Origin: Gracilibacillus oryzae
Lineage (GTDB): Bacteria; Bacillota; Bacilli; Bacillales; Amphibacillaceae
Assembly (NCBI RefSeq): GCF_009498735.1
Contig: NZ_ML762426.1
Location: 1-37,886 of the forward strand
Direction of reading: 5' to 3'
DNA length: 37,886 nt
This document shows positions 32,304-34,363 of this stretch, one piece after another (the stretch's first letter is position 1; the number at the start of each line of letters is the position of its first letter). Position numbers and translations under genes: made by a program. The notes under the pieces are model-generated. The model made no database searches. It was not told the origin of the DNA and saw nothing but the letters and a program-made list of their open reading frames with translations.

Positions 32304-32359
32304 GGGAGGAGTTTTTTTGTGTTTTAATTTAGAAATTATTAAGATAAGGAGTGAGTATT

Positions 32360-33634
32360 GTGCATATTTTAGATGATTTAGCACAAAGGGATCTGATACA
32401 GCAAACAACAGATGATGAAGGCCTACGAAAACATTTAGAGGAGAATGTGGTGACATTATATTGCGGCTTTGATCCGACCGCTGACAGCTTGCATATTGGT
32501 CACCTTTTGCCAGTACTGATGCTAAAAAGATTCCAACAAGCAGGGCATCGTCCCATTGCCTTAATTGGCGGAGGAACAGGTCTGATTGGAGATCCTAGTG
32601 GACGCTCAACGGAAAGAACATTGAACAGTGTGGAAGTAGTAAAAGGGTTTAGTGAGCGTATTAAAGAACAACTTGCAGGCATTTTGCATTTTGATGATAG
32701 TGAAAATGGTGCGGTTGCACGTAATAACTATGAATGGCTATCATCACTTACTATGATTGAATTCCTCAGAGATGTAGGAAAGCATTTCAGTATAAATTAC
32801 ATGCTGGCAAAAGATTCGGTAGAGTCTCGTTTAGAGAACGGTATTTCCTTTACAGAGTTTACTTATATGATCTTACAATCATTTGACTTTATGAATCTGT
32901 ATGATAAAGAGAACTGTACATTGCAAATTGGTGGCAGTGACCAGTGGGGGAACATTACTGCTGGGATGGAATTAATCCGTCGCACCAGATCAGAGCAAGG
33001 GGAAGAAGAAGCGAAAGTGTATGGCCTTACTGTGCCGCTTATTACAAAAAGTGATGGAACAAAGTTCGGTAAAACAGCTGGTGGTGCTGTATGGCTCGAT
33101 CCTGAGAAAACAACGCCATACGAATTTTACCAATTCTGGATCAATACAGATGACCGTGATGTGATCCGCTTTATTAAATATTTCACCTTTTTAGAATTAG
33201 AAGAAATCAATGAATTGGAGAAAGAACTGGAAACAGCTCCAGAGAAACGTGTTCCACACCGCCGCTTAGCAGAAGAGATGACAAAGCTTGTACATGGAGA
33301 TGCAGCATTAGAGCAGGCGGAGAAAATTACCGAAGCTTTATTCAGTGGTGATATAAAGAGCTTGAATGCATCTGAAATCGAGCAGGGGTTCAAGGATGTT
33401 CCGTCAACAACAGTAGAAGAAAAAGATCTTCCATTAGTTGATTTAGTCGTTTCTGCTGGTCTTGCTCCATCTAAGCGTCAGGCTCGTGAAGATATCAAAA
33501 ATGGTGCGGTTTATATTAATGGAGAAAGAAATCAGGAAATCGATTATCGCCTCAAGGAAACAGACCGAATTGAAGATAAATTTACCATTCTGCGTCGCGG
33601 TAAAAAGAAATACTCATTAATCCGCTATAATTAA
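32360..33634 (+). CDS. tyrS: Tyrosine--tRNA ligase
   Basis: A 424-residue class I synthetase that charges tRNA-Tyr. HIGH is at residues 45-48, the KMSKS-like KFGKT at 235-239, and the C-terminal S4 RNA-binding domain covers about 358-424. Length matches other bacilli. The start is GTG at 32360 with AAGGAG at 32346-32351; a GTG at 32351 overlaps the ribosome site. It is preceded by a tyrosine T-box and is a single-gene unit. In B. subtilis rpsD lies next to tyrS; here a palindromic element and the cyd operon follow instead. Confidence 0.96.
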   Translation: MHILDDLAQRDLIQQTTDDEGLRKHLEENVVTLYCGFDPTADSLHIGHLLPVLMLKRFQQAGHRPIALIGGGTGLIGDPSGRSTERTLNSVEVVKGFSERIKEQLAGILHFDDSENGAVARNNYEWLSSLTMIEFLRDVGKHFSINYMLAKDSVESRLENGISFTEFTYMILQSFDFMNLYDKENCTLQIGGSDQWGNITAGMELIRRTRSEQGEEEAKVYGLTVPLITKSDGTKFGKTAGGAVWLDPEKTTPYEFYQFWINTDDRDVIRFIKYFTFLELEEINELEKELETAPEKRVPHRRLAEEMTKLVHGDAALEQAEKITEALFSGDIKSLNASEIEQGFKDVPSTTVEEKDLPLVDLVVSAGLAPSKRQAREDIKNGAVYINGERNQEIDYRLKETDRIEDKFTILRRGKKKYSLIRYN

Positions 33635-33640
33635 AAAAGT

Positions 33641-34260
33641 GAGGGTGGGACAAAACACCCCAAAATACGAATGATAGAGGATTTTAAAACTTTATTCGCA
33701 TCTATCCTTTTCCTATATAAGTTACTTACTGCACATAATAGGGATTATGTGCAGTAACATTTTTAGAGTAGTTTTTGAAATCTACAGTGTGCAAGGATGT
33801 CGCTTCGTCCGGCCACTTCGCTTTCCGTGGGCTCGGCGGTCTGCTAACTTTACAAAGAAGAGCACTTTGTAAAGTGGATCTTCACCTCTCGCTGTCCCAC
33901 AGGAGTCTGCGTGGCCGGCCTACGCTTTAGAATTGCTCTACAATGGTTGTGACAGAAGAATCGTTTAGCTCATATCAATCAAACTGCTACTTCCTATAAA
34001 CATTGTTGAGTTTCATTCAAGCGCAGTCCGATTGCGGAGACTCCTGTGGGAACAGGGCGAGCTGAAGATCCACTTGGTGAAGCGGGTTTCTTCAACAAGT
34101 TAGCTGAGGCCGTCCCCACGGAAAGCGAAGCAATCGGACGTAGCGGCGTTATTGCACTCTAATCATATCAAAATATTTACTGCACATTATCCCTATTATG
34201 CGTCTTTTTTTTAAAAACAATCTTATTTTGGGTGGAACATAATAGTTTTGTCCCACCCTC
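33641..34260. repeat. 620-bp nested palindromic element
   Basis: The ends are a perfect 16-bp inverted repeat, GAGGGTGGGACAAAAC (33641-33656) and GTTTTGTCCCACCCTC (34245-34260). The two halves are imperfect reverse complements almost throughout, with a ~90-base unpaired centre (about 33927-34019). Each half also folds on itself. Left: CCGGCCAC (33809-33816) with GTGGCCGG (33911-33918), enclosing ACTTTACAAAG with CTTTGTAAAGT (33847-33857 and 33865-33875). Right: GTCCGATTGC (34026-34035) with GCAATCGGAC (34130-34139), enclosing ACTTGGTGAAG with CTTCAACAAGT (34072-34082 and 34090-34100). A separate hairpin around TTACTGCACATAAT (33727-33758) recurs near the right end. There is no transposase. 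It is GC-rich in the arms compared with the genome. It lies between convergent tyrS and cydS and can end both transcripts. It is probably a member of an interspersed repeat family. Confidence 0.85.
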
Positions 34261-34261
34261 T

Positions 34262-34363
34262 TTATTCATCGTACGTATTATTCCGCGATACAAACCAAAA
34301 GCAAAAGATAACGGATATAATCACAACAAGAAACGGTGCGTAAAAGTAAATAAATTCCTTCAT
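34262..34363 (-). CDS. cydS: Cytochrome bd oxidase small subunit CydS
   Basis: A 33-residue single-pass membrane protein, MKEFIYFYAPFLVVII... ending in a short acidic tail (NNTYDE). Sequence, size and position match CydS of Geobacillus cytochrome bd: the YAPF/YAPM-VVV start, one helix, and D/E-rich end. It starts 16 bases after the cydB stop on the same strand, with AGAAGG as a ribosome site. In Geobacillus CydS it stabilises the haem b558/b595 side of the enzyme. Too short for routine gene calls. B. subtilis YthC may be the equivalent. Confidence 0.82.
   Translation of the reverse strand: MKEFIYFYAPFLVVIISVIFCFWFVSRNNTYDE

Follow-up and report, generated by a model that had tools for sequence, protein, structure and literature searches.

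What kind of sequence occupies the space between the convergent tyrS and cydS-like genes of Gracilibacillus oryzae, where a large palindrome carries the same nested hairpins in both of its arms? An initial annotation, made from the letters of the window alone (the window being the whole stretch of 37,886 nt analysed), had offered three readings: a non-autonomous mobile element of the MITE type, a structured RNA, or a bidirectional terminator. These readings are weighed here against the fold of the locus, its copies in related genomes and the sites that the copies occupy.

The element between tyrS and cydS

The annotated coordinates, 33641-34260, and the nested-palindrome reading were borne out, the element having perfect 16-nt ends and complementary arm blocks. 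It fills the interval between the two convergent genes, and its parts are as follows.

33641..34260, no strand: whole composite element, 620 bp, starting 6 bases past the tyrS stop and ending 1 base before the cydS stop codon (34262-34264)
33641..33656, plus strand: left terminal inverted repeat, GAGGGTGGGACAAAAC, 16/16 complementary to the right end
34245..34260, minus strand: right terminal inverted repeat, the perfect 16-nt partner of the left end
33734..34200, no strand: inner module bounded by CATAATAGGGATWATGTGCAGTAA, with copies elsewhere 92% and 87% identical
32351..33634, plus strand: neighbouring tyrS, stop at 33634, named from the initial annotation and a reading of the translation rather than a family search
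34262..34363, minus strand: neighbouring cydS-like small gene, 33 aa, convergent to tyrS, named from the initial annotation
33726..33757, plus strand: 14-bp perfect hairpin followed by CATTTTT, terminator-like, reading with tyrS
33642..33661, minus strand: 6-pair hairpin and T-run at the left end, terminator-like, reading against tyrS

Arm blocks of 65, 59, 54 and 31 nt show 74%, 71%, 70% and 87% complementarity, respectively, which agrees with the inverted homologous halves of about three-quarters identity described initially; the outer stems named there are present in the left arm (CCGGCCAC/GTGGCCGG) and in the right arm (CCGATTGC/GCAATCGG), and the inner stems are exactly as given, including one mismatch. 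No ORF of 60 aa or more overlaps the element, in keeping with its description as lacking a protein. The GC-rich arms were likewise correctly recognised, the G+C content being 0.575 and 0.583 in the two hairpin units and 0.32-0.35 in the linker and outer parts, against 0.362 for the window. The copy in the window is therefore short and non-coding, with terminal inverted repeats, as MITEs are. The 12-mer core of the left end has 2 matches in the window versus 0.14 expected, and ends resembling TGGGACA are shared by part of the relatives in the same genome and by the copies of another genome of the genus, G006. Judged by eye, the inner module is reversed relative to its outer flanks in two of the three other long copies (L016, L017, L018), as if flipped between its inverted arms.

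Fold and covariation of the hairpin unit

Each arm holds one unit, recognised by a covariance model (R1).

33800..33926, minus strand: left hairpin unit, 127 nt, outward-reading, 118 bits with R1, among the 30 model-building rows
34020..34146, plus strand: right hairpin unit, 127 nt, outward-reading, 143.3 bits with R1, also a model-building row
33927..34019, no strand: linker between the divergent units, 93 bp
34026..34035, plus strand: P1 stem of the right unit, 5' strand, pairing with 34130-34139
34130..34139, plus strand: P1 stem of the right unit, 3' strand
33911..33920, minus strand: P1 stem of the left unit, 5' strand, pairing with 33807-33816
33807..33816, minus strand: P1 stem of the left unit, 3' strand

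The unit is a single long hairpin, in which a two-pair foot is followed by a 3x3 GNA/GNA loop and the variable stem P1. A conserved GACTCC.../...GGAAAGC lies beyond P1, and the stems P2 and P3 lead from there to an inner hairpin that is again variable. Folded alone, the two units are more stable than dinucleotide shuffles (z of -2.81 and -3.18), and the fold of the whole 620 nt reaches a z of -16.5 (20 shuffles). A single transcript of the whole element would fold arm against arm, so the unit folds are expected only when one arm is single-stranded or transcribed alone.

For the alignments, 79 units were found, of which 19 were dropped (15 with a fixed-site insertion, 2 at contig ends and 2 from a deleted copy), leaving 59 rows (A1) after the loss of one more, degenerate unit. 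The alignment of 30 rows from which R1 was built (A2, plain MAFFT) omits the AGCTGGGG-type units, whose P1 is misregistered in A1, and some others, and the structure scored on it was the fold of the window's right unit. In A2, 94.0% of the cells pair, and 27 of the 43 pairs and 170 cells are changed on both sides, compared with at most 46.8% pairing, 13 pairs and 38 cells when the partners were slid by 1-3 columns; the covariation score was reached by none of 500 shuffles, and the number of further pair types by one. Run unaided, RNAalifold returned largely the same helices, with 34 pairs of which 24 are doubly changed. Furthermore, in a third alignment (A3) of 72 matches (71 distinct) from 57 searched sources, 37 of 43 pairs and 649 cells are changed on both sides, versus at most 23 and 123 in slid controls; A3 shares rows with A2 and was fitted to the model structure, so that its counts lean towards that structure.

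The paired changes had been taken initially as the mark of selection on structure, with the reservation that they might not exceed what the inverted symmetry explains. They do exceed it, since the two arms have different P1 stems and each of these still pairs inside its own unit; P1 as a whole has been replaced from one lineage to the next, and likewise from arm to arm of a single element, with pairing retained. The major base averages 0.83 in unpaired columns and 0.71 in paired ones, the former being the better conserved, and conservation of at least 90% is found in 18 of 32 unpaired versus 22 of 81 paired columns. G-U cells number 134 and A-C cells 46, with 58 of the former belonging to one conserved U-G pair and 28 of the latter to one pair that is out of alignment in a G+C-rich subtype; once both extreme pairs are removed, the counts are 75 vs 17, and A-G plus G-A mismatches are also frequent (78). 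The excess of G-U over A-C cells indicates that the outward-reading strand of the unit is the folding strand. These alignments demonstrate, on statistical grounds, that the unit is under selection for folding as one strand, and the shape of that fold was maintained by selection as the repeat spread into many related bacteria.

Some units deviate in length. In 15 of the 79 units, which belong to several P1 types (for instance L018:2177, L033:1964, L034:2031, L067:2441, and L070:2093 and 2366), one point of the 3' arm holds an additional hairpin of about 57-61 bp with a short direct repeat on either side. Some units of about 183 nt in the genus genome G002 may carry the same hairpin, judging by length only.

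Copies, layout and mobility

Searching the genome and its relatives for dispersed copies, a check proposed with the initial annotation, returned many of them, and the single-copy outcome considered there does not hold. R1 finds 63 units in the own genome, and a DNA search gave 70 matches, including three long copies (92, 87 and 89% identical over the main blocks) and about thirty places with a core of about 92 bp alone. Three contigs, C2 (position 1), C9 (end) and C32 (end), terminate inside an element copy, and the draft assembly therefore probably undercounts full-length copies. The DNA search matched 12 of 12 other genomes of the genus and none of 8 genomes of other genera. With R1, all 16 genus genomes gave from 12 to at least 150 matches each; under stricter filters, the model matched 89 of 120 genomes of the order (55 of 73 genera), the other 31 having no match at the threshold used, and 62 of 299 genomes of the class (24 of 118 genera; E 1e-6), 47 of the 62 lying outside the order. 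The exact 36-mer pattern of the core is found in 18 stretches of Halobacillus, Planococcus, Sporosarcina, Gracilibacillus, Caldibacillus and Bhargavaea records. Carriage by phages or plasmids was set aside: a blastn search with a 347-base query matched no phage record and one plasmid record, from Radiobacillus kanasensis.

The units are arranged in divergent pairs. Among the best 150 candidates per genome, 80 of 81 neighbouring units less than 1 kb apart in four genomes are divergent (G002, 50/51; G007, 14/14; G010, 8/8; G006, 8/8), the exception being one tandem among the 51 close pairs of G002; in G005, which has 12 units, no neighbouring units are closer than 3 kb. The linkers of the 50 divergent pairs of G002, a complete genome, measure 84-89 bp in 41, 121-124 in 6, 142 in 2 and 302 in 1, and the same divergent layout with an 88-bp linker was found in Gracilibacillus. 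Judged by eye, the two units differ in P1 type at 19 of 20 G002 loci. Solitary units also occur, 43 of 144 in G002 having no neighbour inside 1 kb at the model threshold, and many AGCTGGGG-type units of the own genome lack a partner recognisable by eye. A clear departure from the divergent pair was seen in another family, in a genome of about 2.4 Mb: there, in L253, three units stand in tandem with a 189-bp period (409-507, 598-696 and 787-885). Divergent promoters in the linker were not supported: sigma-A-like promoters show no excess in 41 linkers, with 8 on one strand and 9 on the other vs 7.9 in base-composition shuffles. Both the class-wide spread and the divergent pairing go beyond what the initial annotation could see.

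The outer ends are less uniform. In the G002 copies inspected (L208-L227), the ends are two different sequences with a common TTCGCAGTTTRT, unlike the TGGGACA of the window; universal TGGGACA ends were consequently rejected, and this difference suggests that the same core recruited different ends.

Mobility was assessed most directly in G006, which has the composite at the same tyrS site and at seven others. All eight close pairs carry a decayed IS200-type tnpA in the linker, with gaps of 554-783 between the paired units. In five aligned copies the insertion point is identical by eye, and the copies can be matched from about AGACTGGGACAGAA as far as TTCTGTCCCAGTCT, beyond which their outer flanks are unrelated. 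Since the linkers of eight composites, each at a site of its own, all contain an IS200, the IS200 entered one composite, which then spread whole, and these copies thus show that the composite moves as a unit in G006. In L176, the IS200 measures about 673 bp and the remaining linker about 110 bp.

The element is absent at the tyrS-cydS site of six relatives (G001, G002, G003, G005, G008 and G009; no unit match up to E 1), which have there a short sequence with a terminator-like hairpin (by eye). The comparison with empty sites proposed initially was thus borne out as regards absence and not as regards exactness, because the tyrS ends of these relatives are 69-75% identical and their sites are not exact empty sites. 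Past tyrS in G004 (L140), there stands what resembles the remnant of a unit, made up of its P1 stem and the earliest conserved bases, as an internal deletion would leave it. Short direct repeats (7-8 bp) were found no more than 12 nt from the ends in 2 of 8 G006 copies vs 0 of 56 cross-pairs, and no more than 20 nt from them in 3 of 8 vs 1 of 56, the right end of L245 being poorly located; no clear target duplication is present in 6 of 8 G006 copies at 12 nt, nor around the copy in the window.

Dispersed copies at unrelated sites, inverted ends, relatives' sites free of the element and an IS200 carried to eight sites together favour the MITE-type reading put forward at first. We consider it probable that the element is a non-autonomous mobile composite repeat, MITE-like and with a REPIN-like layout, whose structured unit is under selection. 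Its core would consist of two conserved hairpin units placed divergently around a short A+T-rich linker, and its outer ends would be inverted repeats whose sequence varies with the lineage (here GAGGGTGGGACAAAAC). The ends, the unit hairpins or both would be recognised by a transposase acting in trans, and copies would persist mainly beside gene 3' ends. The unit itself would act as a folded single strand, either RNA or extruded DNA, in the service of propagation rather than of the host.

Alternative readings and known systems

The structured-RNA reading of the initial annotation is upheld in part, through the covariation, the G-U bias and kinship with an Rfam family. The family tsr24 (RF02577) is the only one matching inside the element with E below 1, at the right unit, where it scores 35.9 bits (E 5.3e-6) against a cut-off of 50. 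The tsr24 model scores 54.0, 53.9 and 46.8 bits on the three units of L253, two of them above the cut-off, and 29.6-34.0 bits, all below 50, on four other loci (Gracilibacillus, Caldibacillus and others); on the Gracilibacillus copy L126 (34.0 bits), model positions 1-238 span the linker and one unit. As judged from these alignments, the Rfam entry appears to be a fragmentary record of this repeat. The two are alike in that the model aligns over linker plus one unit; they differ in that tsr24 is filed as one Staphylococcus aureus sRNA, while the window and most copies score below 50. In the main text of one study, tsr1-tsr39 are novel S. aureus sRNAs from that group's earlier work, and tsr24 itself is absent from that main text (PMC7392542).

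These observations leave some room for a unit whose main function is that of a small RNA or 3'-UTR module working for the host, made by read-through or from its own promoter and folding into the conserved hairpin, its dispersal being secondary. The covariation with conserved unpaired positions, the G-U bias, the two L253 units above the tsr24 cut-off and the reported status of the tsr series as sRNAs (PMC7392542) are in line with a host RNA. The 12 to at least 150 matches per genus genome at differing sites are the habit of a mobile repeat, the linkers show no excess of promoters, and the 31 genomes of the order without a match also argue against a host function, so that this reading seems doubtful. 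With a similar degree of reserve, we suggest that a class-wide structured RNA of the Bacilli might behave as a selfish gene pair: two divergent folded copies with different P1 stems in each mobile composite, in which spreading, or control of the mobilising enzyme, would depend on the folded RNA as well as on the DNA ends, and of which tsr24 of S. aureus would be a relic.

A bidirectional transcription terminator is unlikely, and the initial suggestion to that effect retains weak support. Each strand has one hairpin with a T-run, and the element occupies the interval in which six relatives have a short terminator-like hairpin; the units themselves, however, lack a T-run, the matching 16-nt ends are 588 bases apart, and the 2 hairpin and T-run sites in the element region (one on each strand) compare with 0.7 in shuffles. 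Of 61 sites, 22 lie between convergent gene pairs and 6 between divergent ones, as a terminator would have it, but 33 lie between codirectional genes; these are raw counts with no intergenic background, and no enrichment is claimed from them (mechanical ORFs of 80 aa, several of them overlapping the element; one contig-edge site and L019-L021 were excluded).

As for the mobilising enzyme, none was linked to the repeat among the IS200, RAYT and PF13751 candidates. One alternative is a REPIN-like element of giant size that owes its movement to a REP-associated tyrosine transposase (RAYT): the layout, an inverted pair of palindromic units around a spacer, is the same, and the own genome has one RAYT gene above the curated cut-off.

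C24:14556-14888 (L155:1099-1890), minus strand: RAYT gene of the own genome, NF047646, 84.8 bits vs a cut-off of 80, the sole PF01797 match of this genome

Nevertheless, this reading is improbable: G002, G004, G011 and G022 hold 140 to at least 150 unit matches each and have no PF01797 match at E 0.001; no unit lies within about 1.5 kb of this RAYT locus, of L157 (69.8 bits, below the cut-off), or of the long-frame Y1 loci L156, L165, L166 and L177, the RAYT gene thus not being flanked by units; and the units measure 127 nt vs 20-40 bp for the REPs described in PMC3733652. RAYT is accordingly unsupported as a partner. An IS1182-type transposase (PF13751) was also discarded, having no match in the own genome and matching 4 of 16 genus genomes, the copy-rich G002 not among them.

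Template-switch correction, which turns imperfect palindromes perfect, could in principle produce paired changes with no selection, but this is very improbable here, as it would erase the internal loops and bulges that stay conserved and unpaired across genera, and it gives no reason to expect more G-U than A-C cells. Least credible is that the tnpA found in all eight close G006 pairs belongs to the autonomous parent, the other copies being deletion derivatives: among 30 order loci of tnpA relatives the pair flanks the G006 site only, one other having a single 18-bit match; of 25 genus Y1 loci outside G006, 23 are free of units and the other two each have a single one at a distance of over 1 kb; across 75 loci searched with six queries (one of which, from L180, is not a tnpA), matches better than E 0.3 were confined to seven G006 loci; and an ordinary linker remains once the IS200 is removed. 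No intact unit-tnpA-unit element was seen in another genus, and IS200 was rejected as the parent, since its relatives stand alone and the insertion behaves as a passenger in G006.

Several known systems resemble the probable composite repeat. Bacterial MITEs, such as RUP, ERIC, bcr1 and the like, are also small, non-coding and dispersed, with inverted ends; here, in contrast, two internal covarying hairpins recur with different outer ends, and target duplication is mostly not seen. REPINs, or RAYT-moved REP doublets, are likewise non-autonomous and present in many copies as an inverted palindrome pair around a spacer, whereas the 127-nt unit has conserved internal loops and several copy-rich genomes have no RAYT-type match. 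IS200/IS605 elements use terminal hairpins, and one is nested in the G006 copies; they carry their own Y1 transposase between the ends, while the window copy has no ORF, the tnpA of G006 is a nested passenger and IS200 relatives are free of unit pairs. Intergenic stem-loop repeat families of related genera were described by Cozzuto et al. (2008), including Bhal-1 of Bacillus halodurans (74 bp, 36 copies) and the Sta families of S. aureus, each, as presented in that account, in one species (PMC2267715); compared by description, not by sequence, these families may be fragments of the present repeat. In open-licence PubMed Central (ISfinder, subscription papers and supplements lying outside it), the core strings of the element returned no paper, its end strings nothing related among the matches listed, and tsr24 as a word unrelated papers only. 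The repeat works like a MITE or a REPIN, yet it has a unit, a structure and a spread of its own.

With 12 to at least 150 matches in each genus genome and 55 of 73 genera of the order represented, the repeat makes up a sizeable part of these genomes, and Rfam 15 represents it only as one S. aureus RNA, an orphan sRNA annotation that is now tied to a mobile repeat. Its covariation is strong enough to define the structure without experiments. Furthermore, the repeat is a genome-wide marker for its mobilising enzyme, and the question of why a non-coding mobile element retains an RNA-like fold becomes testable in harmless soil and marine bacilli.
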